A DNA stretch of 64,000 bases, from contig OX344749.2 of NCBI GenBank assembly GCA_947034885.2, forward strand, positions 30,085,501 to 30,149,500, given 5' to 3'. Position 1 is the stretch's first letter, and each line of letters starts with the position of its first letter. The notes beneath the pieces are model-generated. The model searched no databases, was not told the DNA's origin, and saw only the letters and a list, made by a program, of their open reading frames with translations. This stretch comes from Thuidium tamariscinum. Taxonomy: Eukaryota; Streptophyta; Bryopsida; Hypnales; Thuidiaceae. A program made the position numbers and the translations under genes. Shown piece by piece: positions 4,021 to 61,763 of the stretch.

Positions 4021-4620
4021 CACTACAAGAAATGGGGGGTATATATGACTCCAATAAATGACTGTTTTGAAGTCATTTAGGACAAAAATGACTGTACAGT
4101 GACTTAGGGCCTTGGAGTCATTGTGGACAAGTCATTCTTTAAATGACTCTAATCCTATTATCACCAACGAATTCAGACTTGGATGAAAGACTCTACGTGG
4201 CACATGAAGTTCTTAGGAAAATTTTCTACAAAGTTCGGGCTGCTACCGTTTTTTAGTAGAATTTTTTGGTGACCCTTCCACATCACCTAATTTTGTAGTG
4301 ATTTTGTAGTTGTGGGGCAGTTGACCAAGGTTGACGTGGCTGTCCACGTCAAAGTCATTTAGTAGTTGTGTAGTAGTTGCAATACAGTCAGTGACAGTCT
4401 GACAAGTCTGACATGTAAGTGCATTTACTAAGTCATTTAAAAGTCACTATGCAGTTGCGATGATGTCAATGAGCAGTTTGACTAGTCTGACATGTCAGTA
4501 TATTTAAGGAATTATTTTTTAGTCATAGTGGAGTCTTTGCATTTTGTAAATGGATTGACATGTGGGCATGTGACAAGTCATTTTATAGTCATTCTATAGT
4601 TACATATAAGCACATTTAAA
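4021..4620. repeat. Left terminus and subterminal array of element B
   Basis: After the terminal inverted repeat, the words AGTCATT, AATGACT and close variants recur about every 20-60 bp to roughly 4600. The same words occupy the right end. In CACTA elements such arrays bind the TnpA-type protein. The motif differs from those in elements A and C. Confidence 0.75.
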
Positions 4621-4825
4621 GTATTACAATGATATACCATATACAATATGCCATACATAATAAAAAATCATACAATATACCATACACCATACATCATATT
4701 TGATACACGTGTTACATAGCTTCTTAAAGCTTTTAGCGTATGAGTATCTAGAAATGAAATGAGAAGCTCTTTACAGGACTAGAAAAGTAGAAGGCAAGAC
4801 AAACCATTTGGGATATGTAAAATGC

Positions 4826-5010
4826 AGGAATTGTATTTAAGTAAAATTTCAGACCTAATTAAGGCATAGTAAATTAACTTTTTGCAAAAAACTTTGAACT
4901 AATGAAAGTTGGTAAATTAATCTCACTTTCATCTCCAAAAATTCATTTTATATTTCAAGCCTCTAATCAAAAGTTATAAACAAATTTGATAAAAGGTTTT
5001 AAAAAGGATT
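4826..5010. repeat. Diverged single copy of the element-A hairpin arm
   Basis: This stretch follows the order of the right arm of element A near 2610-2780: an AATTGTATT start, TTTCAGACCT, GGCATAG, TTGAACTAA, CCAAAAATTC and AATCAAAAGTTAT. Identity is clearly reduced by substitutions and small gaps. Only one arm is present, so there is no palindrome. It links B to the A family by sequence exchange, insertion or common ancestry. Confidence 0.65.
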
Positions 5011-6842
5011 GGTATAGGAAGAATGCAAGGGTCACCTATAGTTGACTTCCTCCAAACAAGGATATACATAGTTGTATTAAGTTTCCTCACTTCATGCAAT
5101 AAAAGTGCAACAATTGATGTATAAAATGTTTGCAAGTAGTGAAATAAATTATAATGCACAACATGCCAAAGTAATAGTGGAGTAGTTGTGCAATATTTGA
5201 AAAATTTTGAGCAATCATTTAGTAGTTACAGAAAGTCATTCTTTAGTGAAACTTGAGTAGAAATGCTGTCATTTGTATAAGGGAGAAATAGGACTTAATA
5301 ATTGTCATTAGGTTGAGCATTAGATTCATTTGAACACTGGGTAAAAGCACACTACGGTTGTCCAAAATCGTTGTCACGGCACAATTTCTGCACAGTATGA
5401 AAGTTTGAAGTCAATTTTCTTATATTTTTTGAGGCTTTAAATGGAAAAAAAAAATAGAATGGAGTCTTACATCTTGCATAAATTTATATTTGCATGACAA
5501 TACATGATTTTCATCTATTATTTGATGATACAAAGTACAAACATTAAATGTTTGTACTGTCACAAATTCAGGTTTAGCATTGTTGTACTTTTTTTGCTTT
5601 GTTTAGGATTTCATTTCAACAATTCAAAAAACCCAATCCCATGCTCTAATGTTTAGGTACTTAGCTTTGGCACTTAATTGGTGTTTTAGGACTTAAATAA
5701 CAACATATCATAGCAAATGTGTGATTTTAGTACAAGGGTCAAATTTTGACCTTAAATTGTTTTTTTTTAGTTTTTTTTTCAACTCACTTGTAGGAAGCAC
5801 TGTGATTGAGATGGGCCAACATTTCATTTTCATGTAAAATATGCTTAGGCTCTGTTTTTTTCTATCGGAGATTTGTGCCCCATTTTCTAGCCTGAACCCG
5901 GTAGAACCCTCTAGGGTTTGCCCATCGTACCTTGATATACTGTGCGTACAGTTTGTACACACTGGACCAATATTCATCCGCCATGTACCATCTAAATTGG
6001 GAATAACTGTAAATGTCCAGGTTATGCGGTACTTTTGCAGCGACATTCCCTCCTTTGCACATTCGAAAAAAAATGCAGCGGATCCTAATCTTGTCTATTT
6101 TGCATTAACTTATGTGGGTGTACTCGTTGATTTTGAATTTGTAGTGGGCACAAAGGTTATGGATCAACCTCACACCTCCGCTAATACACTCTGTGGATTC
6201 AAAGCATTGAGTGAAGGGACGAGTGTTGAAGGTGTTCTACGTGCGCTTCTGAAACTGCGACTCGACAAGGTCAAATTCAAAGCTCCGAGTTGGACAACTC
6301 ACCGTGGAAACGCACCGAAGTGGACCTCCGCACAATTCACTGTGGAGCTGGACAGTGCACTGAGGTGGAGATCTAACGTGGACTGCATTCATCAGAGGTT
6401 CATTTTTGACGTATCCATTCTTCATTTCAAAATTCTTGTTTTCTCGTGTTCTAATACAGCCTTTGCATTGTTAGAAACAATATGCCTTGCTCTTGGAGTT
6501 CATTAGGAACACCATTGTGTATCACATACAACATCTCAGTACAACATTTACGTGGCTAGGTACAAAGTGGTCATCGTATGGTTTTAGGATTCAGGCGAGA
6601 GAGTTCAGAAGTACAACATCTGTACAACACTTATGTCTCTAATTACATTCTGTATATTTTCAAATACACTCTATCCGCATTTACATTTAAGCACATAATT
6701 GTTTATAACGACCGCTAATCAAGTAGACATTACAAGTGTCTTGGAAGGCCTTTAATAACATACCTATAACCATGCCGGAAGCGTGCCTCACCTCTTTAAT
6801 TTACAGAGCATTTTCTTCTTTATTGTTTTGTAGTCTTCCTAA
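5011..6842. promoter_or_regulatory. Upstream region and probable leader of the first RING-like gene
   Basis: There is no recognisable protein domain here. An open stretch of about 220 codons at 5841-6506 on the plus strand lacks any known motif and is not called as a gene. A pyrimidine-rich run ending TTTTGTAG at about 6833 sits just before the start codon at 6843, which looks like the 3' splice site of a leader intron. The second RING-like gene (46684) has a comparable GTGGTAG just before its start codon. Core promoter elements could not be placed. Confidence 0.4.
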
Positions 6843-9199
6843 ATGATGGCGTCCGATGACGACTGGGTGGTTCGGAGCCGCATTTTTTCCAAAGAAGATG
6901 AACACTGTAGCGGTAGCGTCTTCAGCAATGACGACTTCATTGACAATTTCCTTGACTCTCCTATCTCGCCATGGGCTAAAGACAATGTCGACACCAATAT
7001 GAAGCAAAGTCCACTGGACAAGGAACTAGAAAAGCTGGCTTCTCTGAAGAACCATCCCCCTCCTCGCACTGTTACTACGGAGGAGTTTGAGACCAAGTAC
7101 GGTTTGTCAAAATACGGTCCAAATCCACATAAACTTCGAATTCCACAGGATCTTATTGAGAAAGATGTGAGTGATGTATTTGGTCCAGCAAAGGGGAGAA
7201 ATGGAAGATCTGGCTACGGATATGGGGAATGTAGGGATGCTGAAGTTGTTCGTCGTATTGTCGAAATTTTTCCACTCGTGTATTTACGAGATCTTCCAAG
7301 GTCCAAGGTAATAGCGAAGCAATTTGCTAGGGGGATCATCTTGGAGATTCGAAAAAAAACACCTATAAGTTGGGCAGAGTTTGCTGGAATTTCTAACAGA
7401 AATCAACGTAGTAAGTGGTTGAAGAAGATTACGTTGTGTTTGGCGGCCGTTGCAGACATCACCGGCTCTAACAAGAAGGAATTGTACAAGGCCGAAGGCA
7501 TCGACGACCTTTTCCATGACCCTACTGCCGAACTTCGACAAAATCAGTGTTTGGTCGGCAATGTTGTAGCAGACGGTACAAACGGTATGGACAACATACA
7601 AAACTATACACCAATTCAGAAAGACATCTCATCCCTCATCGACTTGACAAAGTTGGTAGGGCTGCAACTCCATGCTGTTACAGAAGACTACCTCATTACT
7701 GGAAAAGAGAGAACTGAGTTGTCTAATAAGGCGTCCCAACAAGAAGGAGTACTGTGCATAACCAGAGCCAAAGTTCTCAAGATACAGCAGGAGCACGGGG
7801 AGGGTGCCTTGGGTAAAGCGGAGGCGTATAATGAGATGCTTCAAGATGCTATGATCGATTATGATGCATTTGCATTGGAATTGAAACGATGTAATTTGAG
7901 GTATGAAGATCTTGAAACACGGGAGAAGTGTTTGAAAAGGCAATTTCATGCCTTGTCATCCCAAATTGCTAAAATGAAGAGAGGCGAAGTTGGAGTGAAT
8001 TTGAAACCTAGGCCTTTATGCTCTCAGTTTGATCCGAGATTAGTTTGTGATTTGGACACCATTTCAGTGACACCCTGTGCACTTTGCTTCAGTGGATTTC
8101 CCCACAACAACATTGTAGTGTGTACATGCGGCCATTTATATCATCCATGGTGCGCTGGGGTCTGGTTTTCAGTTTCTAGCAATTGCGCACTTACTTCTTG
8201 TGGTACAACAGTGCATCCATCTTGGTTTATGAGTTTTGGATTTGGCAAAATGCCCGCACTTCTTCAAGAATTGGTACAGTCTTCTAAGCTAGAGGAGGAG
8301 AAAGAGAGTCTCCTCGCAAGCTTGACATCGGCAGTTCTGGATGCCCATCCAGATATTGGTACGCAATTACTTTCAACTTCTGTATTATTTAGTACGTTAG
8401 GTACATAATTTAGTATGTGATATATATGTATTAGTACATGTAAATCTTATGTTGAATACATTCTGATTCTTGTAGATTGATTTATCTGCGGGTTTGTTGT
8501 GTTTCAGAACCAGAGAAACTATACCAAGAGCAAATGAAGAAATATACGGTGTCCACAACAGCTCCAGATCTTAACTACTCTAAAACTATCATTTATCCAG
8601 AAAGCACAACTCCCGTTCTCAGTCTCAGCGGGACTGTCGGGACTGAGGGCTCCACTGGTGGGACTGATTTGTCACAAACCTTTGGCAATGGCAGTGCCGT
8701 TGGTAGCGAAAAAGTTTGGGGTAAGTCTATCCAGCATCCTCCACTTATAGTGCCTCGTCCCCACCTACTGTCTATAGATGAAGTCATAGAGCCTATTAAG
8801 AATAGCCCCCACAATGTAGAGGGTTTTGAGCCTGAGGCTATCACAGAGCCTCAGGTAGGAGTTTTCTCTAATATGTCTTGCGGGGTAGGGGTTGAGGCAG
8901 AGCTCCAGGAACAAATTAGAAAGTTGAGAGAGGAAGATGTGGAGTTTGAGAGAGTAGAAAAATTAAGACTTGAAGTTGCCGAATTAGAACATCGCAAGAA
9001 ATTAAGAGAAGTAGCAGATGGGGTGACTAGGGCAGTAGTGAAGGTGCCTCAAGCCCTACCACTCCCTCCACCTGACAACGAGAATCCAATATTCAAGCGG
9101 AAGACTAGAAGCGAGATCGCTGCTGAAGAAGCAGCAAAAGAAGCGAAGAAGAAACCGAAGAAAAACAAGAAAAGTCATAGGGTCACTCCGTTGGGCTAG
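6843..9199 (+). CDS. RING-like zinc-finger protein with coiled coil and basic tail, two exons (6843-8358, 8508-9199)
   Basis: The predicted protein has 735 residues from the first of two adjacent ATG codons. The intron 8359-8507 has GT and TTTCAG borders and joins in phase, removing an otherwise early stop. Residues about 80-195 form a module shared with the gene at 46684 (a YG-rich segment at 85-128 and FARGII near 161). A charged coiled-coil stretch follows. A RING-like cluster begins at Cys412 and Cys415 and continues through Cys427, Cys429, His431, His434 and Cys437 to Cys448 and Cys453; the final pair is spaced by four residues rather than the usual two. The second exon adds another coiled coil and ends in a lysine-rich, nuclear-signal-like tail. 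A ubiquitin-ligase or adaptor role is inference only. Unlike its relative at 46684, it has no internal stops. It lies in element B as apparent cargo. Confidence 0.8.
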
Positions 9200-10121
9200 A
9201 GGTAGGGTATAGGGATTAGTATTCTTTGTACAATTGAGTACGTTATCAATGAATTCAGCACGCATTGTATGCTGAGTTACGTAGCTCAAGTTGTTTGTAA
9301 AATTGAAGTGACTGCCTAGTATATAGAAAATCATGTATGCCATTCAATTATTTTTTTAAAAAACGATTTGCCTATTTTCAAATTCATTTAAATGTGGTTT
9401 AGAAGTGACATGCTAGTGTTTGTATTCAAATGTTTCAAGTGTGCGATAAGCTTGTTTGTATGATTACTCATTTACTCATGATGAAAATTCATGAGAATAA
9501 AGGAGACAAGTGTTACTTGCTTCCCTCACTAAGATGTCCTCAATTCCTTTCGGAGCTGCATTTGTGTCATCGTTGATTAGCAATTCCGCTCTCTGTCGAC
9601 TTAAGCACTTCTATAGTGGGCCTCTGTTCTTCACTGCTTTCCAAGGGTTTAGGCGCTGTTTCAGCACTTCCGGAGGTGTTTCCTTGTTGTCCTGCATTTG
9701 TTTTGGCTCGGTTCATTTCCAGAGGGAGTTCATTGTCTCACAGGTGATAGTGCAATTTTATGGACACCTTCTGATGTAAAGTTTTCTTTTTCTTATGTAT
9801 GCATCAATTTAGTATGTTAAGTACCTTTCTATGGTGCCATGGTGGTTTGTATTGACGACTGTCGACTGGGTGATTAGAGGTTTAGTGTTCTACATTCTTA
9901 CGTTGGTCATTGTTGGTGATTTGGTGATTAGAGGTGAACTGTTTTACCCGAGTCTTACGGTAGTCACAATTGGTAATCAGGTGATTATAGAAGTTTACTG
10001 TGCTACCCCTCTATCGGTGGTCAGGGTTTAGGTGATTGGGTGATAACAAGTTTATTGTTTTGCTTAGTTCCGCTACGTTTTGTATAATAAACTGTATGCT
10101 TTGTACTACTTGTTTTTCAGA
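9200..10121 (+). other. Spacer with probable leader exon and degenerate repeats, upstream of the 123-residue gene
   Basis: An open stretch beginning with ATG at about 9533 ends at a possible splice donor after TCTCACAG near 9743. Joined to the next acceptor it does not stay in frame with the 10122 start, so it is best read as untranslated leader or a short upstream frame. Between about 9860 and 10070 there are three to four degenerate units of about 58 bp, each containing a GGTGATTA-like word. An acceptor TTTTTCAG at 10113-10120 precedes the next coding exon. Confidence 0.4.
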
Positions 10122-10493
10122 ATGGAGTCGTACACATCGCAGCATCCTCAGTCGAAACAAGAGCTCTGTTTCTTTCTGTCAATGGTATTTGACGAACAAG
10201 ACAAGTATCTAGCTCTTGTCCTTCCATCTCTAGCGCCTCTCACCAGTATTTTACTTTGCCGTCCTCACAAATTTGAGTGGAGTGCAAGAGCGGACATGGT
10301 CTTCCGCCGTATTGTGCGTTGCATTACAAACAATGAGGCCGAGATGCAGCTGCTCAGTTTTGCCGGCACAATGCTAGGTTTGAATGTGGAGGAGGCTGTG
10401 AACGAAGGAGCTCAACTCAGCATGGCCCCACCGATGGAGGTGGAAATAGAAGAGAGACCAGCGAAGCGGTCTAAGGAATCATCAAGCAAGTGA
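10122..10493 (+). CDS. Small uncharacterised protein with basic C-terminal tail
   Basis: This 123-codon frame starts at the ATG lying immediately after a strong 3' splice site (TTTTTCAG) and ends TGA. The middle is helix-like (hydrophobic and charged residues alternate through a leucine-rich region), followed by an acidic MEVEIEE stretch and a RPAKRSK tail that resembles a nuclear localisation signal. I recognise no domain. It follows the RING-like gene on the same strand and may be a separate small gene or the last exon of a longer transcript whose earlier exons are untranslated. It is probably a component of element B. Confidence 0.5.
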   Translation: MESYTSQHPQSKQELCFFLSMVFDEQDKYLALVLPSLAPLTSILLCRPHKFEWSARADMVFRRIVRCITNNEAEMQLLSFAGTMLGLNVEEAVNEGAQLSMAPPMEVEIEERPAKRSKESSSK

Positions 10494-12878
10494 AGTTTCT
10501 TCCCAATGCCTCATTGTCATTGGATTCCGAAAACCACAGCATCGTGTTCCGATTCCGAGTTGGCGTTTACTTCTTACAATAGTAGTCGGAGTAGTTTATA
10601 TCATGCCCGCGTACTTTTGGTGCATTTTTGGAGGGATTTTCTTAGCTGCATTGGAATCATCACTCAAGTTTCAGTGTGCTTTCCAATGCTTTTGCTTGGT
10701 AATTACTCGGCAGATAGTTACAAACTTGGATTAGGGATTCAGGTGGCTTTCAATTTTGTAATCAAGTTTTGTGCAACTGCAGTTGCATTATAATAGTAAA
10801 AATCTATATCTTTGTCACAAAATTCTCTTGCCAATGTCAATTTGGGGTTCAAGGCTTAAGCTGTGACTTTCAGAATGTATGAAGGAATGTACAGTGCATA
10901 CATGTTTGTGTACATAAGAGACCAATGAACGTCCACCACGTTGTGTCTAAATCAGGATTCACCAGCAACTACGTCTAGTTTATGCGGTTTGGTTCTTAAA
11001 ACAAAATCCCTTTTGTAGAATTAGAAAAAGGTGGAACTCCTCTTTTGTCACTCATTCAAAGAAAGAATTGGAATCCGATGTGCTATGCAAGGCTGAGAAC
11101 ACGTGTATATTTATATTTTAAGTTGTATGTTCTCTTTTATATTAAAAGCAAAAACCTTCTACAATTGTCGTTAGGTGAAGGTCTCAATTTTCTTCATTCA
11201 ATTGCTGAAATTGAATTTCCACGTCATATCCAGAAGGGTCCATGTCAACTCAAGCCAGTCACAAGAAGACATGTGAGCACAACAATTTCAAATGACTTGA
11301 TAAAGCCGAATCTGACCTTACATACATGGCTCAATCTTAACCCTAAAAACAAAGTACTTCTTATTGCTGTATGTATTTGAATGTTACTTTTACAGAAACA
11401 AAACAATTTGTTTTCGTTTTAATATAGATGACTATAGGCATAACAAGAATTAACGCATCCATTCTTGATTTTTTATAATTGAATATTCTATTCACATAAG
11501 TAGAGGTAATTGTTTGTTGATGTGGTGTAGCTTAATATTCTCATTTAGGAATTGAACCAACTTTTTGAATTTTGATTGTCTGCTTGAAGATTGAAAATCT
11601 ACTCTTTATTCATTATTCTTCACTCAATTTAAATTTCTATCAAAAAATCAAAACATGAATATACAATTTAGTGTCCCTTCCTATTTCATTGATAAGAATA
11701 TAAGTAGGGCTAAGTAGTTATTCTTTTAACATTTCATATTTCTATGATATGAATACAAAAAAGCATTGGAATTTTATTATTCCTTCTTGAAGAACAAAAC
11801 ATTCATTCTTCATTAATAAAATGTTGAGTCTTTCTTTTGTAACCACAAGAAATTCTTTTGTATGAATTATTGTTGTTGAATTTTGTTTAATGACAAATAC
11901 TCACAATCATAGGGCTTTAATATAGATGAATATTTCTTTCACAAAGTCACTTATTTTTTTCATTTAAAAGGTTGAAAATTTTCTTACAAGGAAAATAAAA
12001 TCTATACTCCTTGCACTTTTACATCACTTAAATTTTATTTAGTATAATTATAACTTCAAAAACAACTTAATTTTCTATTTCTTGTCAATGCACCCAAATA
12101 TGGTAGTTAGGACACTTTGGAGGATATTCTATTCATAGAGCTTTAGGGATGACTAAATTCACTTGGATTACTTTTTTAATGTCATTGACGAATATAATTG
12201 CATGAAAATAAATTTTGTTATGATCATACTAACTTGGCGGTTGAGCTCAAGTGGCAAAGCAATCTAGTAGACCAAACGAGTGTTGGCTCCTTGGACTTGA
12301 AATATATTTGATGTTCTATACTCATTTGGTTTAGGATTTTGTATTTTAAAATGACAAAGTAATTTACATTGCATAAGTGAGGTTTTAGAATCTTCTACTA
12401 TGCACAAAATTTTTGCTTTCTGTTTCCTCCTATATAACTATGAATATTATATTTATATATTTGTTTTGGCTAATTCATGCCACCATATTTTTCTAAGTTC
12501 TCCATCCAATTTGACAAATTGGCAAGTAGATGTAATTTTTTTTTCACTTTGTAACTTAGAATGACCTAATTTTGGATTCATGATTTCTATTCATGCGGAA
12601 ACACATTTCTTTTTCTAATTTTCCTCATGAAAGGTTTTAGAAACTTTTTTGAACAAAGAATTGTTAAAAAAAATTTGAATTTCATCATCTTCAAGATTTT
12701 TTTGAAATAAATACAAGACAAACCTTTATATATAGTAGCTGCAACAGCTATCCTAAATCTTTGTACATTTGAAGTGGGTTTTTTACCTCCTACAATCTTA
12801 CTTGTATAATATTTTCTTGTCTTGGATCATCTCTCTCCAAATATTTAGTACTTCTTAAGCTAAGTTAGTAGAGACTTA
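10494..12878. other. Gene-free AT-rich interior of element B, left of insertion C
   Basis: Only short frames without recognisable domains are present (for example 10506-10793 and 11045-11380). AT content rises sharply after about 11400. The sequence continues at 41812 on the far side of element C; TTA at 12876-12878 is the left target duplication of C. Confidence 0.5.
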
Positions 12879-13110
12879 CACTACTAGAAAAAATGTGTCC
12901 AAATTAACAAAAATTTAACAAAAAAGTGTTGATTTTTTTTGTTAATTAGGACATGTTGATTTGGACATTGCTCAACCAAAAACTGTTGATTTGGACGACT
13001 AATTTCACACTTTTCTGTTCTTCTTTAACATGAAAGTGTTCATTTTGTTGTCCATTTTTACACGTTCATGTTGATCATTCACAAAAAAATGTTGATTTGG
13101 ATGACAAGTT
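12879..13110. repeat. Left terminus and subterminal GTTGATTTGG array of element C
   Basis: After the terminal repeat, GTTGATTT, GTTGATTTGGAC and GTTGATCA-type words recur five or more times. The same words, inverted or direct, occupy about 41660-41811. These are the expected binding sites for the element's own TnpA-like protein. Confidence 0.75.
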
Positions 13111-16100
13111 TGACAACAAGTTTTTACTCCTACCAAAGTTCCAAATGGGAATTCTACTCTACTGAACTAGATTTATTTGCAGTGCAGACATGTTGTAATT
13201 CAAAACATTACAATTGCATCAATCAGTGAGAAGGTGCAAGCTCTACAGAGCATTGGATAAGGAGAATTGGCACTTATACACTCATAACTTTACTCCAAAT
13301 GGTAGCACTTGCATTTGAAGAAGCTGTTTCATCTTGGAAACAATAAACTTCCTCACAATCGTTCATTTTCATTTCTTCTAACAATGTATACATAACTTCT
13401 CACTGGACTCCCTACTAATTTTGCAAAATACTGGACCCAAAACACGTTCAACATTTTCACTTTATTTTTTTGAATGATGCATACATCTTGCATTTGTAAT
13501 CCAACTCCTCTGTACACTTGCTTCCATAAAATGCAGTTCTCATGGAACACAAAGAAGTAGCGTTACTCAACCTGCACACATATGACATATCACATGCAAA
13601 ATCATTTCGCTTTTAGTTCCTCGATGTTACTGTAACCAATACTACCTACTTCTAAAAAATTCATTGCAACTGCATACGTTAAAGCAGCTGACAATGTCCT
13701 CTTAAAAGTACAATATGTCAGTATACAATGGACTATGTAGGAGTACTCAGGACTCAGCACTTCTTCCTCCGACATGAAAGAACGAATATTTCGTTAAACT
13801 GGCGGTATGCTACAAGCTTGGCATTTTCAGGTTGAGACCATGTAATCTAAACTGTATACCGCTCCTACATTTTAAGACTTTGAAGTCTGAAATCCATACT
13901 TGTCCTAGAAAATGAATGGAAAACGGCATATGATTACCGCCAATTCAATGAAATATCTGTTAATGACACTAGGTTCTTCGACTACATAGGGTTCTACAGG
14001 GTACTCACATCAGGTTCATTTAATTATTTCATTTCTACAAATGAAGAACATCTGAAGAAAAAACATGGAAGTCATGAACTTCCTCGAATCATGTGGCTAC
14101 TAGTACTTAATCCCAAAGATGCAGAATAACATCTAATAAGGCAAAAGACATTACTGCAATGTACGCAAGCTCTAGGATACCACCAACGAAAAACAAATAA
14201 CCACTACGCCCCCACAACAAAACAACTCCAAGAATGAAAATCTTGGAAACTGGACTTACCTATCTCCTCCCCTTCTTCTCGTTTGTCCTGTTCAACAGAG
14301 TAACGTCTACTTCAGCAGTTCCGCTTCCTCAATACATGACCGTACTTCTTCTCTGCCTACTCTCCTAGACATGCAGTGCAAGAATCTGTGCACGCCATTT
14401 CTTGTCTCTGCAATTCAATGTCCACTTCCGCTGCCTTATATTTGTATTAATGATTTCTTCTGCGTTGGATTCATTCACATGTCTCATTTCACCTGTGCAT
14501 CGTTTGAAACTTGCAAGGGCCCCACACTACACTGCAAGCTCTACTACAAAGCTAAAGAAACTAATATGGGATTTACAACGCCAAATAGTTGTAAGAACCA
14601 TACCTGACAACAGTTATGTCTGCTATCTTAGAAGTAGTCTAACTGCACGTATTCCGTGAGTGCATGTAAAACTTCCACATGCTGTTCGCAATTTCGTGTA
14701 CAGCGAAGGTTGAACTCATTCCTAAACAAGAGACTTCCTGCATTTCATCCATCATGCTGCCGTTAGCAATTCAGTTCTTTCAACCCTCACATAGTGACTC
14801 ATATCATAGTTCTCGTGGCTTCAGATGTTCCATACATTTAGAACACTACGAAGAACTCACTTCCAACTGTAGAATTTTTGGAACGCACTTCTATAATAAG
14901 AAGTAGATATCCTCTCCCACTAGAACGATTCACACGGGCGACCGAAAGCAAGGACTCATGGAAAAACTTACTCACAAATGCATACAGTAGTAAAATTTCT
15001 TCTTCTCAGAACATGACTCACCTCTGTACATAAACATTCCCTCTACAAGAATATAGGTACTGCCAAACCTCTTGAACTGCCGCAGTGGCTCCAGTATTTG
15101 GTAAACCTTACAACATACGGCTCCCTGTGCGGCTCAAAATGGTTCACTTCTTCCAGTCCTCTCCGACATTTCCATTTTGCATTCGAAGCATTTCAGCTGT
15201 GAACCCAACCTGGAGCAACCACAGCAGTGACAGCGCTTACTCTTCATTTCAGTACTACTTCTTTGCTGGCATAAATAATGACGGAATTCTACTATCACAT
15301 TCAAAGTGATGGTCCATTCATTGACATAGTCTGAGACAACACTGCGAATCTATCACAACAATCCACGCCATCCTAGGTCTCTTTCTTCGCATCGGTGTTT
15401 AATTCGAGAACTCTGTTTTCAATGTATTCATTGGAGCACCACACTCACATTCGCTATGCACCTTACTACCATGAAATTCTGCATTCAAGCTCATACAAGA
15501 CAGAAAGCATTTGCACCACAACTTTTACCCATTGCAGTTTCAATTCGTCAGAACTTCTTCATGTCTTCTCTTTCATCACCTGCGTACCGATCACCAGCAT
15601 CATTTTAAGCTTGTTTTCAATGTCGACCTCACAGACACTGACAACAGTGAATCAGAATCAGCGCACAGTCTGAGAAAAAATGTTTGAAATATAATTTGAA
15701 AAGATGCCGGACAAATATAATTCAAGTAACCACAATTACTCAACAATCGTTTCCACTTTCAGCAGATTCCTTAGAACAGACAGGCCTTCACGTTCCGAAA
15801 AGAAAAATAATTCTCCTGCACCTTTACGTACTGTACACACGCCTATTGTTGATTGCTTGATGTCATCCTTGGCATCAAGGAACCCTCCGCGCTCTATTCG
15901 GTACTGCCGCAGGGATTACCTGTGAATTCCCTAATTCATTTGCTTCGCATGCCAAGTAATTTTGATTATCACAAGAATGCCTACACTCTCTGAACACTGA
16001 AGGACTTCGATTTAGTGAGTTCGATGATAATAGGGGGACACGACACTTCTTCATACTCGACTAACGTAATCGTCTTTGATCGACTATATGCACGATTAAA

Positions 16101-19100: not shown

Positions 19101-20403
19101 ATTTCAGTGCTTGCTCCTCCAGAAAACTCATTGCAGTAGCGACCCTGTCGTCCATACTTTCGTGCCGTGATCGGTCAATTAATCGTCCACAGTTAGTGTC
19201 CTTCGGCACTCCAAATTGGTCTCGCACTACCCTACATCAGGTCATCACTTACCACTATTTTGAGCTTCACTTCCTACCCTTCGAACAAAGATAAACTAAC
19301 TAGAATACAAAGGAGAATAACTTCAGACGAAGATAACTCAAATGAAAACTTCAACACTCTATGTAATGAACATGGGAACCACAACATAATGAAGTAATAT
19401 ACTTGGAAACAGAAATTCATCTGAAAGGCTTCTTTTCCTCTTACCGGCTAAATCTCTGATAAGCACCCCTCCCATTCCGATAACCGACATTGGCTTCAAT
19501 GTGCACTTCGACATTCAGAACGACGGCTTCATCTGTACACTGCACTTCTAATCGCCAAAGAGAGATAGTACGACACAGAAGGCTTCCATGGAATTCCTAG
19601 AACTCTCTGGAAACAGGTACAATTCCTTGCTACTCATCTACTGTAATATGTTAGGAAACAGCCACACAAATAAATAGACAATCACATCACAAATAAGGTG
19701 CTCGGCATACTCTGGCATCCGAATTTCGGTATAGAAGAATTTCTGGCTACCACTGTACAAAACCTAAAACAGTATGGCACTTCAATTCAAGCATACAGTG
19801 GAAACTGAAATCAGAAATTATAAGTCGACCAAGCCCATTCTTCTCTGACCATGATTCGTTCTTCATCTAGCACAGAAACTGAACATACATTTCCACAATG
19901 CACTCCTAGTCTACTTCCTGGACTGGTAGTAATCCACCATTTCATGAATACGAGAAAGAAACAACCCGTATGAAAACATACCAACTTCTCATTGCAAGCA
20001 CAGTTGAACATGAGGAAACACTTCATTATCCACATAAGAAAATGTCATATGCACCTTAGCACATGTGTTCTTGTACTGCTCTGCAGACATTTTCCTTACC
20101 AGGAGGCACTAGCTCACGTAGTAAACTGACAGTTCGACCACATCATACTTCGTTTTTCAGCTATTTTCATAGTGAAACCTCACTCCATTCCCTCAAAAAG
20201 CCTGATATCGACACAGTCGAAAGGCAAAGCAAGATGACATTACAACAAATCGTCCGAAACAACGACCACTTCACTCAGCACACTAACAGTATTTTCAAAA
20301 CAGACTTTTGCTTCCACACATAAAACTAGTCATAACTATGAAGACATCAAAATGCTCAACACATGACGTTCGCTAGGTGCAGCTCTTTCCTTCGTTCAAC
20401 ACT
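13111..20403 (-). other. Downstream part of the TnpA-side transcription unit; no firm gene
   Basis: Many short frames occur on both strands, but none shows a domain. The plus strand is C-rich relative to G, as expected if the minus strand is the sense strand of long introns or 3' sequence. The best candidate exon is 18982-19236 on the minus strand: it follows a plausible acceptor (GATGTAG), reads about 84 codons with a charged helical composition and ends TAG. I could not connect it in phase to the gene at 20404-26492, so it is not called. Confidence 0.35.
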
Positions 20404-45977: not shown

Positions 45978-46180
45978 CTAAGAACTCAGGGCCTTGTACT
46001 TCTCGTTTAGGTGTACAATGCTAAGTGTTGTGGAGGTTGATTTCAGAAGAACTGTTGCCAATGACTGATTTAGGGTGCATTAGGGTGAGAACTCCAGCGG
46101 CTAGCACAAGCAGGGCGCGCGTTCGGAAGTGAGACGGTGAAGCACGTGAAGCTCGTTCCTCCTGGTAAAACCATTGTCTT

Positions 46181-46440
46181 CAGTGTGGTGGTTTGGGGCA
46201 TTGTTTGTGATTAGTAGGTGGTTTGGGGCATTTTTGAACTCTTTGTCCTCTCGAATAGAATAATCTCTGTTCAGTGTGGTGGTTTAGGGCATTGTTGGTG
46301 ATTAGTAGGTGGTTTGGGGCATTTTTGAACTCTTTGTCCTCTCGAATAGAATAATCTCTGTTCAGTGTAGTGGTTTAGGGCATTGTTGATGATTAGTAGG
46401 TGGTTTGGGGCATTTTTGAACTCTTTGTCCTCTCGAACAA
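46181..46440. repeat. 91-bp tandem repeat, nearly three copies
   Basis: Units start at 46181, 46272 and 46363 with CAGTGTGGTGGTTT or a variant. The last unit is truncated and merges into AAAATAAACC. Each unit internally repeats the phrase GGTGGTTTGGGGCATT. It lies in the leader of the RING-SET gene. Confidence 0.9.
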
Positions 46441-52200: not shown

Positions 52201-52544
52201 GTACAAACTATATATCTGATGGTACAAACTTTATAAATTGTACCTCAAATCTCATTAGATGTAGTGGTTTGACCCTAAGATGTGGAGACGCCAACCTTAT
52301 TGATGTGCCCGTCCGAGTAAGCAAAGAGGATCCAAGACTCTACCGTGTTGTTGTTTTTGCACAAGTAGCCATTCCAGCGTTGGAAGAGTTTACGTGGGAT
52401 TATGGCTGTAGTTTTGAAAAGCGAGAAGTGGATTCTGTAGTTCCCTTCCGTTGTAAGTGTGGTAGCACTCACTGCCGTGACTCAGTAACTGACGATCATC
52501 CAATTCGCCCCATCACTGATGTCTTGCCATCATGTGCAAACTGA
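49203..52544 (+). CDS. SUVR-type SET-domain histone-lysine methyltransferase part of the fusion, intact
   Basis: From the ATG at 49203 (start of the third exon) the spliced frame is open for 817 residues to the TGA at 52542-52544. The order is: a Cys-containing start; an acidic Thr/Gly/Glu-rich region with a 51-residue duplication; a basic KRPKPSRPK stretch; a pre-SET cysteine cluster (CQCGECC to about CTNH); and a SET domain with KGWGLRT, EYVGEI, NHRCGDANLIDVPV and EFTWDYG. It closes with post-SET CKCGSTHCR. The NHxC/DxNL and WDY motifs are complete. The NHRC join uses the acceptor at 52278-52279, chosen because it restores the conserved motif exactly. Plant SUVR proteins methylate histone H3, typically lysine 9, to silence chromatin; substrate choice here is inferred. 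Whether translation can start at 49203 is unknown, since the broken first exon lies upstream on the same transcript. Confidence 0.75.
50495..50800 (+). repeat. 153-bp in-frame tandem duplication in the SET gene
   Basis: Two units (50495-50647 and 50648-50800) of exactly 51 codons differ at about two bases (an Ala/Val and an Asp/Gly change), so the duplication is recent. It lies in the acidic low-complexity linker before the SET domain and preserves the frame. Confidence 0.93.
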
Positions 52545-53992
52545 AACTGCACGTTGCATTGTGGACTATATACACTTGTGGATTTCAGAACGAATTAAGT
52601 AGTTCTGGGTGGGTGGGTACTCGATAGGTAACATCTCTTAAGCTATTGTTGCGATGCAACCGCCCAACACATCTTAATATTTGTGATACTTGGGGAAGAC
52701 ATAAACAGTGGAAGAGAATACGTGTACGTGTTAGCAAAAAGCCCTTTAATGGCAAGGGGTACTCATAGAAGACATTTCCACCTCCAGTTCAATACATTTT
52801 TACAAAATTAGTATAATTTGTACAAAATTGTATATAGAGTACCGTATATGCCTGTACTGCAAAGTACTACGACAAGTCAAACTTGTGAACAAACTGGTAT
52901 GTGTATACACATCTTATGAAGTGAAGCAAATTTATTGATAAATTACACCCAAACACGACCTTAACAAATTAACCCTACAACAACTTCATTTAGATTGTAC
53001 TTTAAGCAAAAGAACCATCTATACAACTGCTCTTTGCTCTTGTCTTCTAAGGTTGTGCATTCCACATTATAGCCTCCATTTGTTGTCGTTGTGTAGCTGA
53101 TAAAGTAGTCATAGTGAGAGGATAGACGGATAGTGCTTAGTGTTGTCTTCTTCCTTACTATAGTACCCCACATTCTCAGTCTAATCTCCGTGAACGATTC
53201 AGAGTCCAGACGTCTTGCATCATACTTTCTTTCTATTGAACTTTGACAGACAATTGCATACCCTGGAACTCGTTACTAATAGCTCTAGTCCACTCTATCT
53301 TCTAGCAGTCTTTGAGTCTTCTCACAATAAAAGAGCCCTGACTTCATCAGACCCCGAGCCTAAAACCTGTCCCTTCCGCTTCTCCACGCTCTTCCTTAAC
53401 CTGTGCAAGGTAACGACGCAAGTCAGCCTTGGAATGTAGGATGGAAGACACCCTACCCTGAACGCAACCTGTCGACTTGTCCAATAGGAATAGGATCAGC
53501 CTTGCAATTTAAAACGGAAGCTATAACAGTAACTCATGACGCAATGCAATGCAATTGTAGGAGCGAGCAAGCTATTGCAACAAGACATGAAAGAAGCAAG
53601 GAAGAAAAGACAAGGACTTTTGCTAGACCAAAGGCAACATGATGGAGACAACCCTGAATGGAGAAGTCTATGATTCATGTCACAAAAAATCTATTAGCAC
53701 ATGAAATAACCTAGAAACGAAATTAAGGCAAAGGTAGTCCAAGCGAAAATGCCCGTACTCAGAAAATGACGGAAATGCTAGTGCTCAGAAAATAGAGTTT
53801 GGCTGTCACAATACAATACCTTAACTACTACATGAAAATCAACACAATTTTAGAGTTATACCATCAAGATCACCATGACATAAAAAATTGCAGATGAAGA
53901 AAGTGGGTAATAGAATATGAAAAGTGATAGATTGCAGTACCCAATAGTGGACACATCCTTAGTTATTATGTGTACTTTTTAGTATATATAGT

Positions 53993-54022
53993 ACATTTTG
54001 TACTAGTATCAGTACAAAATGT
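53993..54022. repeat. Short perfect inverted repeat centred on GTAC words
   Basis: Arms ACATTTTGTACT (53993-54004) and AGTACAAAATGT (54011-54022) are exact reverse complements around AGTATC. It could form a small hairpin or a dimeric protein-binding site. It is too short and A/T-rich to be called a terminator. Confidence 0.6.
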
Positions 54023-55780
54023 GACACTAAACGTACATTGAAATGTTCATTTGCAGGTCTACTACTCTGTAGTCAGCTATTATTTTAGGTAGTACCATTT
54101 TTACTCATGTAATCAAAGATGATTGTTTACTAAAGATGAATAAGAACTACTGTAAGGACTACAAGTACAACATGCAAGTACAAATAATGCAAACAATTAA
54201 GTTTTTGAACTAAGTTCTTCTTACAACTCCGAACATTGAACCTCGAATACAATAAACCTGAAATTGTAGTGTATGTACTGTTAAAAGCATACAAAGGTAC
54301 CACCAATGTATGAACATTCCCTTCATCCACCGCTATCAATACAATATACCCTAAACCTACTACAAATGTTACGAACACTACAATTTCTTAATTGAATGTA
54401 TTCCAAGAATTCGGTTTTCTGAACTTCAGTTACCATTGGTGAAGTTTGTACTTTTAAAATCATAAGATGGTAGTACAACAGTCTACTGACATTGCTTTCA
54501 CTCACCACGATCAACGCGAATGCAATCGTCCGAGTACAACAGGTACCCGCCATACAAAAGTAGACATGAACTAATACAGAAATATTTGATGTACAAAGAG
54601 ATGAAGTCACTTACCAGGTGTTTTTACAAATATGACGTCCAGAATTTGAACTTCAATCCTGCCATTGTACAGAGGGTAAGCACCTGAAATACAAAGTGCC
54701 CACTGTACGACCTGAAGGATATGTCTAAATCCAAATAGTATGTTAACTAATAGAGACTAAAAAACCTTAAGTCCATCGACTGAGATGTTGTATTTTTTAT
54801 GTACTTGAAGAACCCTAAATCACTTCAACACCTTCAACCTTCCATTACAGTTTTTGAGAGGAGTATAGATTAGGATCATTCTATAACAGAGTTGAATCTA
54901 ATTCAATGCAATGAACAACTACAATGGGTATAAGACTATAGCATAGTAAGATAATAATCAATGCAGTGGGTAACTTGAAACTTAAGTGAAATGAAACTAA
55001 TTGGAATTGCATATACAAACCTTCACATGTCCTGATTTACTGACGCACACGAAAATGTGGATGCTTCTGATGCCACTGCTCGCTCAAACAAGGCCTCTGC
55101 GCTCATGACAACAGTAGTAGCAGACATATATCTAGTACTGCGAAATCCTAGATAATACGCAATGTCACCTTGCTTCGACGTCGGTGTTTCTGAGACATAT
55201 CCGTTCGTCGAAGTCACCAAAGAATCAAACTCACAGCTCACAGTAGCCAAGGAACTATGTCTAGGACCACACAATGGGAAGTAAGCCATAATGTATTGTT
55301 GAACAAGTCTAGAGCTACGAAATGGAAAATAGTCTGTGATGCATTGCTGAACAAGTGTGCAGTTACGAAATGGAGGGTTAGACATCGCCATAGAGGAAGT
55401 CCAGCAAGTGCACGATTCGAAAACCAGGGAGTGACCACAGACTAGAAATGAGGTAGTAGCCGAACTTGGAAAACGGAAAACCGAATACTGAAAACGAGAT
55501 GGGCAACAATCGAAACGAAAAAACTCCTCTACACCGCCTCTCGGCAAACATCAGAGAAAATGAGTTGTCAGAGGCGAAACGGGAGGCAAAGCATTGGCGG
55601 CTCCAGATGTCCACGAATTTGCGGTGACCATGCCCAGCAACATTGTTGTCAGTGAATTTGATCCATCCATGTGTCACAATTTGAAAGTCAATGGAAAATT
55701 CCGTTACAGCACATTCTAAGATCATTCAATAAAGTAAAACGGGCACCAGAAAGTATGGACCAAATTACCAAGAATAACTT

Positions 55781-55911
55781 TGTACAAACAGTATTCTTTT
55801 GTACAAAATGTAGTAATTATCAATCGGGGAGGGAGTAGACGTACATTGAAACATACTCCTTGTACAAAGAAATTAGCTTATGGTACAAACAAAGTGGTTT
55901 CTTGTACAAAC
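55781..55911 (+). promoter_or_regulatory. Array of five TGTACAAA-type words before the viroplasmin-domain gene
   Basis: TGTACAAA or GGTACAAA occurs at 55781, 55801 (offset one), 55861, 55882 and 55903, within 210 bp of the ATG at 55988. GTAC is the core of SBP-box and copper-response sites in green plants, so a regulatory role is possible but not shown. Similar words are dense in the introns of the RING-SET gene. Confidence 0.35.
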
Positions 55912-55987
55912 TAACACACAAACTTAATAACTAAAGCCCTAAAGGCAGGATTGGAAGAAACGAGAGGTTTTTTCTAACATCTGAAGA

Positions 55988-56416
55988 ATGGCGCGATCAC
56001 CAGAGGAGCACTGGCGGCAATGGAGGGAATTTTTGTGGCAATGGTTTGCGGTGTCGTGTTGGTTTATATGCGATTGGATTCGCCAAGTCATGGACAAGAT
56101 CTGTAATATATTGGAGTGGACGTTGGCGAGGCAAGATACACCTGTGGCAGTGAGTGAGAGACGCCAGTCTACAGGTGTAGAGTCAAGCGCGGAAGGAGCT
56201 TTGGCTCGTTGGCGTGGTGGAGTGCACGAGGGTGTTCAGGAAGATGTAGCATCCACAGGAAGTTTTTATGCAGTGAGGCACGGGCGAACTCCTGGTCTCT
56301 ACCGTTATTGGGCCGATTGTGCCCGGGAGGTTTTGGGATTCAAAGGAGCCAAGTTCAAAAAATTCAAGACACTAGGAGAAGCAAAAGATTTTTTGCATGA
56401 TACTAAGGAAAGATAG
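55988..56416 (+). CDS. 142-residue protein with a caulimovirus-viroplasmin/RNase H1-type hybrid-binding domain
   Basis: A single-exon frame runs from ATG to TAG. The first about 50 residues are Trp-rich and hydrophobic (WFAVSCWFICDWIRQ), suggesting a membrane-associated or amphipathic helix. The C-terminal about 50 residues, with YAVRHGRTPGLYRYW, then GAKFKKFKTLGEAKDFL, match the small fold found at the N terminus of eukaryotic RNase H1 and in caulimovirus inclusion-body proteins. In RNase H1 this fold binds RNA/DNA hybrids. No RNase H catalytic domain follows, so the protein would bind but not cut. It sits between the SET gene and the minus-strand transposase-like gene, as part of element B. 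It could derive from a host RNase H1-like gene or from a pararetrovirus relic; nothing else viral is visible nearby, which favours the former. Confidence 0.7.
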   Translation: MARSPEEHWRQWREFLWQWFAVSCWFICDWIRQVMDKICNILEWTLARQDTPVAVSERRQSTGVESSAEGALARWRGGVHEGVQEDVASTGSFYAVRHGRTPGLYRYWADCAREVLGFKGAKFKKFKTLGEAKDFLHDTKER

Positions 56417-56901
56417 GATTTTTCTAGGGGGTTCAGAGCTAGGATCAATTGCTGTAAACCCTGAACTAGCTATGTACCATTCTCTGATATCTTGTTGGTT
56501 TAATTTGAGTATATTTTAATTGAGATACCATGTTGCTATAAATTGAGTTTTTATTAAGTGAGATACCATGTCACCTGGTAGAAATTGAGTTTGTATGAAG
56601 TGAGTAGAGTGTTGAGTATTTGTAGCCTTGGAAGCCAATTTATGCACGTAGAATTGTGACTTTCAATGCGGATGCAAAAAATGGACTGAAAAACTTCCCC
56701 TCTGTTGAGAAAATGAAAAATTTATTGAAATAACATGAATCGCAATAGAATTGGATCAGAGTAAACATATAACTTGCGTTACCAGATGAACATTTTGCAC
56801 CATAGCTATGGACATCTATAATCCAATACATATTTGTACAAAGAACAATTAATTGTACAAGAAATAGAGAGTAGTCCAAAGAAATAAGCCACTGCAGCTA
56901 C
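56417..56901. other. Convergent 3' spacer between the viroplasmin-domain and transposase-like genes
   Basis: This AT-rich spacer lies between two genes whose 3' ends face each other. A sentence-like duplication (GAGATACCATGT with TAAATTGAGTTT-type words) occurs twice near 56521-56592. No gene is seen. Confidence 0.5.
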
Positions 56902-59900
56902 CTAATCGTCTTCCTCCCTAAACCGGTGTAAGCCAGCCCTAATTGTAGCGACACTGTCTTCGCTTAAATCGTAAGTAACCTCCCCACCTTTATGCCTACC
57001 TAGCTTAGGAATCATTGCGAATTTGCCGTGCACAACAAGATGTGCATCAATGTGAGCTGGTTGAGAATTGCTGAGGAATACATAACCATTGTTCCACTTT
57101 TGATAGTAAGTGCCTCGTACGATGAAGTCACCAGATTCAAACTCAGGGCCCCATGCACATTTGAATCTGTGGTCAACCACATATTTTCCCCTTATGCACT
57201 GCAAAATATAGAACTCTACTCCCTCGACATTGCCTTCCATGGCAGGGACAGCGAAATTGTCACCTGGCCGTATGAGATCACCAAATCCCTCGCCTTCTAC
57301 ATCTTCCTCCCAATCCTCATCTTCTGGGATGTCATGGTCTATCATGTGGTCAGCAACTTCTTGGAGGTTGTGTGGTTTCAGCTTCACCAAATCCTAGTTT
57401 TCGACATGGGACTTATTTAAGCAATTTATAAAGTTGTTGTCGAGGCAATAGGCACAAAAGCAGGAGAGTTTGCGAACAAACAGTTGTGTTGGATCTGCAA
57501 CAGAAAAAGAATAGATCGAATGCAAAGCCTGGGAACCTTGAACAGTTTCGCATAGATACCCACGTTCCCTCATACAATCCTTGGGGATCTCCCAAAAATA
57601 TCTAAATACTTCCTTGATGCTTGTCTTCTCAAAATTCGTGTCAACCATCCCTCCCATGGTTTCATTCAAGAATGACACCGCATCATGTGCATTTTGCATC
57701 CTCCTCCATGTGTTGTGTAGTTGGGACTGCCTCAAAGCACGCTTTACAACAGCACCAGCTCCATCCCACTCTCCCTTACCATGACCTGTTCCAAAAAAGT
57801 TCCAGTTCATAGTACAACCATTTGTCATGCCGGGATATCTGGCTACAAAATAAAACGGTCGAGCACCCTTAAACTGTCCTGCGCAACCATCAGACCACAC
57901 TATGTGGTGTGTCGGTCGAATCCCTGCAAACGACAGATTATAGTACGTGAGTTGTAGGTGTAGAATAGACACTCAGTACAATATGTATCATATATAGCTA
58001 CAAAGCACAGAAGCATTGTAATTAGAGAGTTTGGATTCTTTGTGCCATCCCAAGTAATAAAGTCTCATAAGACCTAGGCATGTAGTTCTAAAAAATGAGA
58101 AATTGAGGCAAGACATACAAAACTAAGGGAAATGGAATGCAAACCTTGAGAATGTAGCCATTGCCAATGTTGCATCAAGCAATGCTGAACAAAGAGGGAA
58201 TCGTGCTTTTCATCGTCAGTTATGTAGAAATGAGATTCCTTCACTATGGCTCCATCTGGTTTAAACCGATACGTGATGTGCACAAGGATACTAATCTGCG
58301 TTGAGCACCAATACATGCTCTGGATCTGGTTTTGAATCTCAAAAGTGTAGTTTTCGGCAAAATCAATATGTGACAAAATCACATCTTTACCTAAACTCTG
58401 CATAGAACGCTTGCATTGGTCGTCCTGCCACCTTGCAATAAAGTTGTGCTTCACGAACTTGGGAAGTTTTAACTTCAAGTGTTCAAAAAATACTTGTGGA
58501 GAGGTCTCCTTGTATACCTCAACGATCCTCTTACGGGGCTTTCCATCCCGCTTCAACCCAATCACTTCATTCTCGAAGCACTTCCAGGTGACATTTGAAG
58601 ACGATGATGACTCAAGAGGGCAAATTTGAAGCTTTGAAATACCGCAGTCTGCACACGTACCCATGACACATTGCAAAGCATGCCACTCTTTGTTCTCAGG
58701 CTTAGGGCAAACAATATCTTGCCAAAGGGTTGTTGTACCTCCATATGTCTTCAGATGTGCTTTACACTTTGACTCTTCTTCCAATCGAAAGAGGCACACA
58801 TCACACGTATATTGACAATTCTCTGAGAAGTGAATTCCTTTTGAGCCATCCCGAATCCGATTGAACCCCTCCCTGAGCATATCGATCTCCACATGATATC
58901 TACAGCAACAGACGTTCCTCTCGTTGCACGCTTTAACAAAGTAAGGCTTCAATTTCTCAAAGGCTCTCTGCTTGATTGGCACGTCTGGGTGTGCCACCTT
59001 GAACTCATGGTAGAATGCGGCCTACAACATTTTATGAAAAATCAGAAGTAGTAATTCGAAGAGGTAATGAAAAGTCCTCACAAATCCCATACACAACATA
59101 CCTTGGGCCCTAATACCTGGTAGTTAAAGTAGATCAGCACTTCAGCAGAGAGCACCCGAGACAAACTCAATGAATATGAACATCAAACAGTGTACATCAC
59201 CCGGCAACGAAGACTTTCTGAATACTCGACCGTGACCCTCACGGTACTTTTTGTACAAGATGCACAATTATAAGTACAGAATGTATCTGAAGGTTGTACT
59301 GTGGAATACACAGTCATATTATCAGAGAGCTAGAGAACATATTGCCTAGAATTTTTGATTTGATAACGTGCTTGGACGCTTCAATAGAATCGATTTGTAC
59401 CTGACTTTTGAGCAAATAGTAAGTGCAATGTTTTTCGTATGTTTTTGGACCTATCCACTTCTGTACAATTTCCTTCCTGTTGGAGCTTACACGGGTCTCT
59501 TCCGTCCACCACTTTGTGACGAGGTCTTTAATCTCATCAGATAGTCCCGGCTTCTTCCTACGCCTTGCAAGTGCAAACGGCGTTCTAAGCATACGGACGC
59601 TACTTCGGCGAGTGATAGCCACCTTCAAATTGGCTGGGTGAATTTTTAGAACCCGAGACAAAGCTTTTGTACTTGTCACACTGGTAGAAATAGCGGCGTC
59701 TAAGAGAACAGCTTTCCTAGCAAGCATGTCTGCCGACTGAACTCCCTTCACAGCTTCCAATTCCTGCTGGTAGTTTTTGAGGAATTCAAATTGAGTTTTG
59801 GCATCCTGTCCACGAGGATAATATGGAGGAAGAAATAGACAAATACGTTCATCTTCTAAAAATCTCTCCATGATCTTGAACCTAGAGGATGCATCAGGAC

Positions 59901-60174
59901 AACCTTGCATCTTCATTACGAAAAAATCTACAATTTCGGACAAAACTACACCAAGCTCTCGTGGAGACATATCTCTTCCAACCTCCAAATCATCGGACAC
60001 AGCAAGCGACCTAGCTGCTTCATCTCTCTCCCTCAACAATTGTCTCCGTTTTCGTTGCCTCTCTACCTCCCCGTCTCTCAAACTCTCCCTCAACACACTA
60101 CGATCCTCTGCCCTTCCACGAGGTCCCTTCCTCTTGAACCCAGCACGTCATTCTCCAAGTCTTTTATTTGCCAT
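56902..60174 (-). pseudogene. Transposase-like protein with candidate DDE/D triad, three exons, two in-frame stops
   Basis: Minus-strand exons 60174-59401, 59021-58145 and 57923-56902 join in phase (GT-AG) to about 890 codons. The first exon is basic and helical. The second shows FEKLKPYFV, a Cys/His-rich region (CCCRYH, CDVC, CADCG) and SHIDFAENY (Asp478). The third shows WSDGCAGQFKG (Asp562) and FFGTGHGKGEWDGAG (Glu602/Asp604). The acidic residues in the SHIDFAENY, SDGC-QFK and HGKG segments are spaced like an RNase H-fold transposase. I recall an uncharacterised family with the same order in other eukaryotes, but I cannot name its superfamily with confidence. TGA at 60150-60148 interrupts codon 9 and TAG at 57396-57394 lies before the last 164 codons, so this copy is probably inactive. 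It is the only nuclease-like gene belonging to B itself. Confidence 0.65.
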
Positions 60175-61079
60175 TGAAGGAAATTGAAACCAAAATCAGT
60201 AACAGTGAAGCATCGAAACATTCTAGAGTTCACAAGAGGCATCAAAACATTGTAGCAACTATCTGAATTGAAGCATCAAGCTTCCAGCGACTATCTGAGC
60301 TGAAACATCAAAGCTTCCAACAAGTATGGCACCCGACTTCAGGCATGTTGAAACATCCTCACTATTCCAGGCGACTAACTAAGGCGCGCCCAAATTCAAG
60401 GAGGTCTGTTGTCAGAGTACCGGAAAAGACACCGGAATACGAGGCATACAACTTTCGTACAGTTTGTATTAGGTACTCTCGTTTGTACATCGGGCCAAAT
60501 AGCGACCGTAGCGTGCGATCACCCCACTGTAGTGTAATTTTATTGAGACCCTTCAGTTAGTAATTCAAATGTGAATGAAATGAAGTATTCAAAAATAGTG
60601 CAATGATAATGGTGCAAATTTTTAGAATTCATTATCGGCAAATCAATAGGAGTTTAAATAAACCATACAAATGGACCTTAAGTAAAAGAATAATATACAC
60701 CAACAAAAAGAAAGCCCATTAGTAATGCATCTTTTCAAAAAGAAAGACAAAAAAAATATTCTATTGGAAAAAATGTTTTTGAAAATGAAAAAGATAAACA
60801 AAGAGTAGAGGAATTAGAAAGAATTTATCAACTCAAGAGTGTGAGTGTTAGAAAATCCTAAATTGCATATGCCATTGTAGTTGCCAACTAGAAGATTATT
60901 AGTTAGCGCAAATGCAATAGAATTGTACTTTGCATGTCATGTTTTAGTTGTCCAACATCTTCAAACTTGGTACACTTATGAGTTGATTTGTTGCCAAGTA
61001 GATCTAATGTGAATTTTGTTGTTTAAAACTATATTGAAAGTACCTTAGCATTTTAAACAATAGTTGCATAGTAGTTGTT
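60175..61079. other. Gene-free region right of the transposase-like gene, with degenerate short repeats
   Basis: From about 60205 to 60350 there are three to four degenerate units of about 34 bp with ATCAAAAC/ATCAAGCTTCCA-type words. This would be the promoter side of the minus-strand gene. The rest is AT-rich and featureless. Confidence 0.4.
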
Positions 61080-61763
61080 GAGGTGAGAAGATGATCCCTC
61101 CAAGTCACAATTAGTCATTTAGCAATTGCAATGAACACACAATGCTTTGAAGCTACTTTAAATCCGCTAATGAGGTCCCACTACTTTGCATCATTTTCTT
61201 AAACTGTAGTAGTTGTAGTTTAGTCACTCTAGAATGATAAACCTCCACGTCAGCAAAAAGCCTAAATGATCCAAACTCTAAATTTTACTTTCCAAACAAA
61301 AAAGACGTTGAAGTCATCCTGAAGTCATGTTGTAGTCATGGTGTAGTAATACGCAGTCGTGTCCTAGTAACATTAGCACCACTACTATCCATGTCAACAT
61401 ACTGCCGTGCCCGTCTTCTTAGAAAAAATTGCAATGGGGCCATCCAAAGATCCTAAAGTCATATTTAAGTTGCACAACAGTATAGATCAATCATAATTAA
61501 TGACTAGCTCAAAACTAGGGCATCTAAAAAGGTTCTCCCCCATTCTTTGTACCCCAATTTCAATGAATGTCTACTGTGACTGTCCCCCTCTATAAGGTCT
61601 TCATCCTTGAGTTGCAAAAAATGACTAGAAAATGACTCTGAAAAACTGTAGAACAAACTTTGGTGCAATTATAGAGGTATCAGTCATTTTTGAGTCAGAC
61701 CGGACAGTGAGTCATATATTAGTCATTCGTTGTAGTCATATATACCCCCCAATTCTAGTAGTG
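61080..61763. repeat. Right terminus and subterminal array of element B
   Basis: AGTCATT, AATGACT, AGTCATC and AGTCATG words recur irregularly up to the terminal CTAGTAGTG, mirroring the left end. AGA follows at 61764-61766. Confidence 0.75.

Follow-up and report, generated by a model that had tools for sequence, protein, structure and literature searches.

Which transposon carries the SET-domain and RING-like genes that lie between a pair of CACTA termini in the moss Thuidium tamariscinum? We addressed this question in a 64,000-bp stretch of DNA (the window; C1:30085501-30149500), in which the termini at 4021 and 61763 had been taken in the original prediction for the ends of a single CACTA element, 28.8 kb long once a nested element, C, is subtracted. 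Our analysis gives a different answer, in which three insertions are nested in the order A', B and C, and the SET and RING-like genes belong to B, a giant transposon of another type, and not to a CACTA element. We put the probability of this reading at roughly 0.9.

The outer ends themselves were confirmed. The CACTA and TAGTG termini pair at 38 of 43 bp, each contains a G6 block, and AGA stands on either side, as predicted. Their best 40-bp pairing scored 35 against a maximum of 26 over 30 shuffles, and when the window was scanned for a 30-bp end pattern, with at most 3 mismatches allowed, these two ends alone were recovered, against 0 expected by shuffling. Each 700-bp end holds 12 AGTCAT/ATGACT sites, giving 24 in total against 0.59 expected from the interior. 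With its CACTA ends and 3-bp duplication, the outer element, A', is a CACTA element. In the genome searched (363.2 Mb in 19 contigs), its left 401 bp gave at least 43 matches with 40 of 454 candidates scored, a few of the matches being fragments of single copies. Among the 20 top-scoring places beyond the window's own, 18 possess two ends, are flanked by the same 3 bp on either side and measure 2.56 to 3.8 kb; a right end reaching the query start was not found in the other two (L014 and L025).

These short copies provide the empty sites on which our reading rests. Fourteen of the 18 two-ended copies (20 fetched) align to the arms of the window element and run uninterrupted where the window has 5339-60524, so that the whole insert is absent from them. 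At the junction most of them read ...GAATACT-TTAGTG..., with minor deviations in a few; at the same point the window has ...GAACACT-(insert)-CACTGTAGTG.... The insert, B, is thus nested in turn, and about 2.55 kb is left for the CACTA element itself: A' is a small CACTA copy without recognised genes that was later entered by B. The original prediction had made its single unit depend on other copies of the ends flanking the same genes; none of the 18 two-ended copies matched the RING-like or transposase queries (E 1e-4; SET lay outside the query set). The remaining four copies (L027-L030, about 3.0 kb) have only their ends in common with A', and carry DUF4216 remnants and exact 3-bp duplications. 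These remnants link the A' end family to tnp2-type CACTA parents. A further A' relative of about 3.0 kb, also with DUF4216 remnants and exact 3-bp duplications, lies at 975-3946 of the L013 stretch.

The block exposed by the empty sites has ends of its own. Its left end starts GGGTAAAAGCACACTACGGTTG (GGGT...) and its right end, reverse-complemented, reads GGGTGATCGCACGCTACGGTCG; B measures 55,186 bp, or 26,253 bp without C. At least 40 genome matches to the left 401 bp of B were obtained (40 of 43 candidates scored), and among those listed the window's own is 100% identical, five others are 99-100% identical and the rest 74-96%. At the 12 B loci that were read, the window included, similarity sets in within the first three query bases, and the DNA next to it is unlike from locus to locus. 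A second copy read at both ends (C1:15991998-16018077, 26,080 bp) is flanked by TATT/TATT, and a third on C5, about 26.8 kb by coordinates, by CTCA/CTCA, with T for C as the last base of the element. Together with CACT in the window, exact 4-bp duplications thus flank all three copies read at both ends. The near-identical ends elsewhere in the genome point to recent movement of the B family.

A single 28.8-kb CACTA with chromatin cargo, broken only by C, would account for the CACTA ends, subterminal repeats and AGA duplication that enclose the whole stretch, but 14 short copies lack 5339-60524, and that block is bounded by ends and a 4-bp duplication of its own and recurs elsewhere in the genome in different surroundings; we regard this reading as very improbable. 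A transposon with SET and RING-like genes does exist, as had been predicted, but the carrier is B, whose ends, 4-bp duplication and DDD transposase are its own, and not a CACTA element. A small CACTA around a larger element is easily mistaken for a giant CACTA.

The nested element C was confirmed as well; it is flanked by TTA at both sides and contains tnp2, DUF4218 and DUF4216. Minus-strand frames of 204-257 aa also lie in C at 21753-26578; those parts of them that were scanned gave no Pfam match above cut-off. The order of nesting, with A' outermost and C innermost, was read directly from these interruptions. As a history, we propose that A', 2.55 kb long and without recognised genes, would have entered host DNA with duplication of AGA; B (26 kb without C, 22-bp GGGT ends) would then have inserted into A', duplicating CACT, and the 28.9-kb tnp2-type CACTA C would finally have entered B, with TTA as its target-site duplication (TSD).

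Features of the nested insertions and of the genes of B, in window coordinates (TIR, terminal inverted repeat).
Feature	Position	Strand	Details
A' TSD AGA	4018..4020; second copy 61764-61766	.	flank reading
A' left arm	4021..5338	+	12 AGTCAT/ATGACT subterminal sites in first 700 bp
B TSD CACT	5335..5338; second copy 60525-60528	.	
Element B, Sola-like giant transposon	5339..60524	+	empty sites, TIR, TSD, genomic copies, flank change
B left 22-bp TIR	5339..5360	+	17 of first 25 positions agree, all within first 22
Gene 1, 521-aa frame	6843..8408	+	helical N-terminal part, coiled coil, RING-H2-like finger; 8 homologues
Element C, 28,933-bp tnp2-type CACTA nested in B	12879..41811	+	TSD TTA
Gene 2, first part	46672..48356	+	diverged gene 1 paralogue, broken
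Acidic exon and lysine-rich tail exon	49751..51158	+	153-bp repeats, donor after 50940; tail exon 51044-51158 including stop
SET gene, SUVR-like	51254..52544	+	pre-SET exon from 51254, exons 51696-52129, 52280-52544
Short frame with RNase H1 N-terminal domain	55988..56416	+	hybrid-binding, PF01693; E 5.3e-18
DDD transposase gene	56902..60132	-	exons 60132-59401, 59021-58145, 57923-56902
B right 22-bp TIR	60503..60524	-	
A' right arm	60529..61763	+	

What moves B? The nuclease-like gene of the original prediction is present and is best read as the DDD transposase of B. Three aspartates of the window protein, D464, D548 and D590, have an equivalent aspartate in 64 of 64 homologues, and we infer that they are catalytic. 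In a second look with VIA-align the transposase core fell with integrases, and its named relatives include a moss protein; an additional 5' exon is conceivable. These relatives suggest a moss or another streptophyte as host, and the introns, the nested tnp2 CACTA elements and the SUVR-like gene would suit a plant. Pfam searches of 64 family members at E 0.01 gave no covering family, the matches being scattered over 11 families with one or two members each, among them DUF6597 in two members (2.4e-4), DUF7869 in one (0.0048) and leucine-rich repeats in one. A sequence search of the PDB gave no match at E 1. A tnp2-type transposase was not matched in a six-frame search outside C, which recovered C's own tnp2 as the positive control, and the profile comparison for B reached probabilities of 0.1 and 0.3% with the tnp2 and DUF4218 exons of C. 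None of 36 pattern matches to the transposase in viral contigs was confirmed as a homologue, and none of 60 in prokaryote genomes; the 17-bp core of the B ends occurred at 0 places in viral contigs and at 2 places in bacteria, which we take as chance matches. An earlier idea, that the DDD gene drives the CACTA ends, was dropped.

Sola elements, as a review describes them, have a DDD transposase, 4-bp duplications and inverted repeats of 11 to 1124 bp, are mostly 2-9 kb and in some cases over 15 kb long, and are present in the moss Physcomitrella (PMC10741241). B resembles them in its three invariant aspartates in an integrase-like fold, its 4-bp duplications in all three copies and its terminal inverted repeats (22 bp, of which 17 are paired; at least 11 bp in Sola), and differs from them in its size of 26 kb and in its SET, RING-like and hybrid-binding genes. 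By the combination of DDD, 4-bp duplication and inverted repeats, B fits a Sola-like element, matched to Sola by description only. Another DDD superfamily that also makes 4-bp duplications, for instance the Lanisha lineage that has been proposed or one still without a name, is possible, if somewhat doubtful in our view, and would suit a transposase that no Pfam family covers and that has no PDB sequence match. The authors of Lanisha reportedly work on mosses, a point counted on the same side. Lanisha itself, a cut-and-paste superfamily proposed in Repbase Reports 2020, belongs to the CMC/CMCT transposases, for which a C(2)C and an H(3-4)H are described in the interval from the second D to the last E (PMC12730594). 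In the B transposase neither part of this signature turned up from the second D to the third, the third residue being assigned from conservation and a model and Lanisha being compared by description only; this may speak against that lineage in particular. If B is Sola-like, its transposase would bind the GGGT ends, excise the element and join it to the target with a 4-base stagger in the Sola way, as knowledge of the family suggests.

Several observations weigh against our reading. The inverted repeats pair at only 17 of 22 bp, and a blind scan for inverted-repeat pairs around the gene blocks found nothing above shuffles. The scan missed B because its ends are only 17/22 alike and because the stretches scanned never paired both ends; the ends were recognised because the empty sites exposed them. 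Both ends were read in three B copies only, and the SET and transposase genes were compared in only one other copy. Foldseek itself, run against the PDB and against viral models, returned nothing at E 0.001. In the window the gene has one in-frame stop (TAG at 57394-57396), and in the second copy exons b and c are without stop and the first exon has a one-base gap; because of this stop and this gap, neither copy read shows a whole transposase. Across exons b and c the two copies differ by 5 silent and 17 changing codons of 633, and across the last two SET exons by 3 silent and 5 changing codons, with no constraint seen in either comparison. Movement of B by the DDD transposase is something that we infer.

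The SET gene raises the question whether B carries a working methyltransferase. The SET core is present in the window protein, with NHxC and post-SET cysteines; GWGLR, EYVGE, NHRC, DYG and the post-SET cysteines, all retained in this copy, are SET-type motifs. The pre-SET zinc cluster is incomplete: N137 and R141 occupy positions at which each of the 7 other aligned rows has C, and two more columns without C in the window lie in a poorly aligned part. In the expected place of the second B copy, the last two SET exons, to which the comparison was confined (the pre-SET exon at 51254 lay outside it), are open, differ at 8 of 699 bases and contain no stop, and the arginine of NHRC is replaced by lysine. 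The same two pre-SET cysteines are absent in both copies, and since the loss is common to both it is older than their split. In the SET-domain tree the window protein pairs with P0089 on a long branch; because long branches meet there, we draw no firm inference from the tree. The chances are about even that the gene is an idle captured fragment carried by B. At least two pre-SET cysteines are gone, the same two in both copies, no upstream start was identified, the tree branch is long, and changing codon differences outnumber silent ones, all of which would suit a fragment; it would be less expected that the last two exons have stayed open in both copies and that the window copy keeps the core SET and post-SET cysteine motifs. 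If the SET protein is made, it might methylate histone H3, at K9 judging by its family, on B or on host chromatin.

Two RING-like genes accompany SET. In the finger of gene 1, all eight C/H zinc ligands are found in 9 of 9 aligned rows, with the final pair spaced C-x4-C; the usual spacing of the final RING pair is C-x2-C. Gene 1 scores below the Pfam RING cut-off (21.5 vs 27.3 bits), its structure model is of low confidence (mean pLDDT 58), and the VIA-align rows cover the coiled coil only and are silent on the rest. A later exon probably lies within 8456-9199. None of 59 pattern matches to gene 1 in viral contigs was confirmed as a homologue. The frame of gene 2 shifts near 47.1 kb and meets stops at 47649 and 47793, and we read the acidic and lysine-rich tail exons as its end. 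As read, B in the window cannot make a full-length transposase or gene 2 protein. The RING-like proteins might act as accessory factors, by end binding or in a ubiquitin-type role, which is speculative. A RING-SET fusion had been predicted. The analysis did not bear it out as stated: gene 2 has its own stop at 51156-51158. Judged from the exon signals, a fusion is possible by way of the donor after 51116, the sole one found in the tail exon from which the SET exon at 51254 can be reached in frame, and in-frame GT sites are also present upstream of it. An Rfam scan returned 0 matches.

How far does this gene content set B apart? HarbingerS and MuDR families with a SET gene are described for Phytophthora in PMC12730594; they are, like B, DNA transposons with a SET methyltransferase gene, but they belong to other transposase superfamilies and another kind of host, and the SET of B is SUVR-like. 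A' and C share CACTA ends and 3-bp duplications with En/Spm (CACTA) elements, and C also tnp2, whereas B has GGGT ends, a 4-bp duplication and no CACTA ends; enlarged En/Spm families of 16-20 kb with 4-5 ORFs are reported from a red alga (PMC6431247). VANDAL elements with VANC anti-silencing proteins are plant transposons that encode a factor acting on silencing (PMC13317346); in B no VANC-type protein was identified, and a histone methyltransferase-like gene is found instead. Our literature searches, whose coverage of subscription papers was poor so that absence is unproven, turned up no SUVR or SET gene in a plant transposon. B is a DNA transposon of a plant, present in multiple copies, two of which were seen to carry the SET methyltransferase gene; its superfamily is other than those for which we found such a gene on record. 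Left ends that are 99-100% alike allow one to ask whether a transposon-borne H3 methyltransferase helps B to escape, limit or place itself. A far-reaching proposal would be that B founds a giant Sola-type lineage, recently mobile in this host, whose chromatin kit is kept in order to steer the lineage's own silencing or choice of target. The kit would consist of a diverged SUVR-like methyltransferase whose zinc cluster is altered, of the two RING-like proteins and of the hybrid-binding protein; we put this forward tentatively and consider it unlikely as a whole.

Some further repeats were observed in and around the nest. In an AT-rich part of B, a 38-bp direct repeat (42270-42307 and 44045-44082) has copies that are 97% identical and lie 1775 bp apart, and between 41812 and 61763 TGTACA is present 36 times against 6.8 expected and TTGTACAA 12 times against 0.8. 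Inverted copies of another small CACTA flank the nest at 1598-3499 and 62337-63916, at distances of 521 and 573 bp. ATA is duplicated at the left copy, whose terminus is repeated in tandem as three 94-bp copies; the right copy has no matching duplication. Farther out, 1-1560 holds 6 occurrences of TCAATTnGAC and its complement, where base shuffling gives about 0; these may be subterminal repeats of a further element. Inside the left small CACTA, 2124-3065 forms a near-perfect palindrome with 469-nt arms that are 99% complementary and 4 nt between them, a possible hairpin and source of small RNA.

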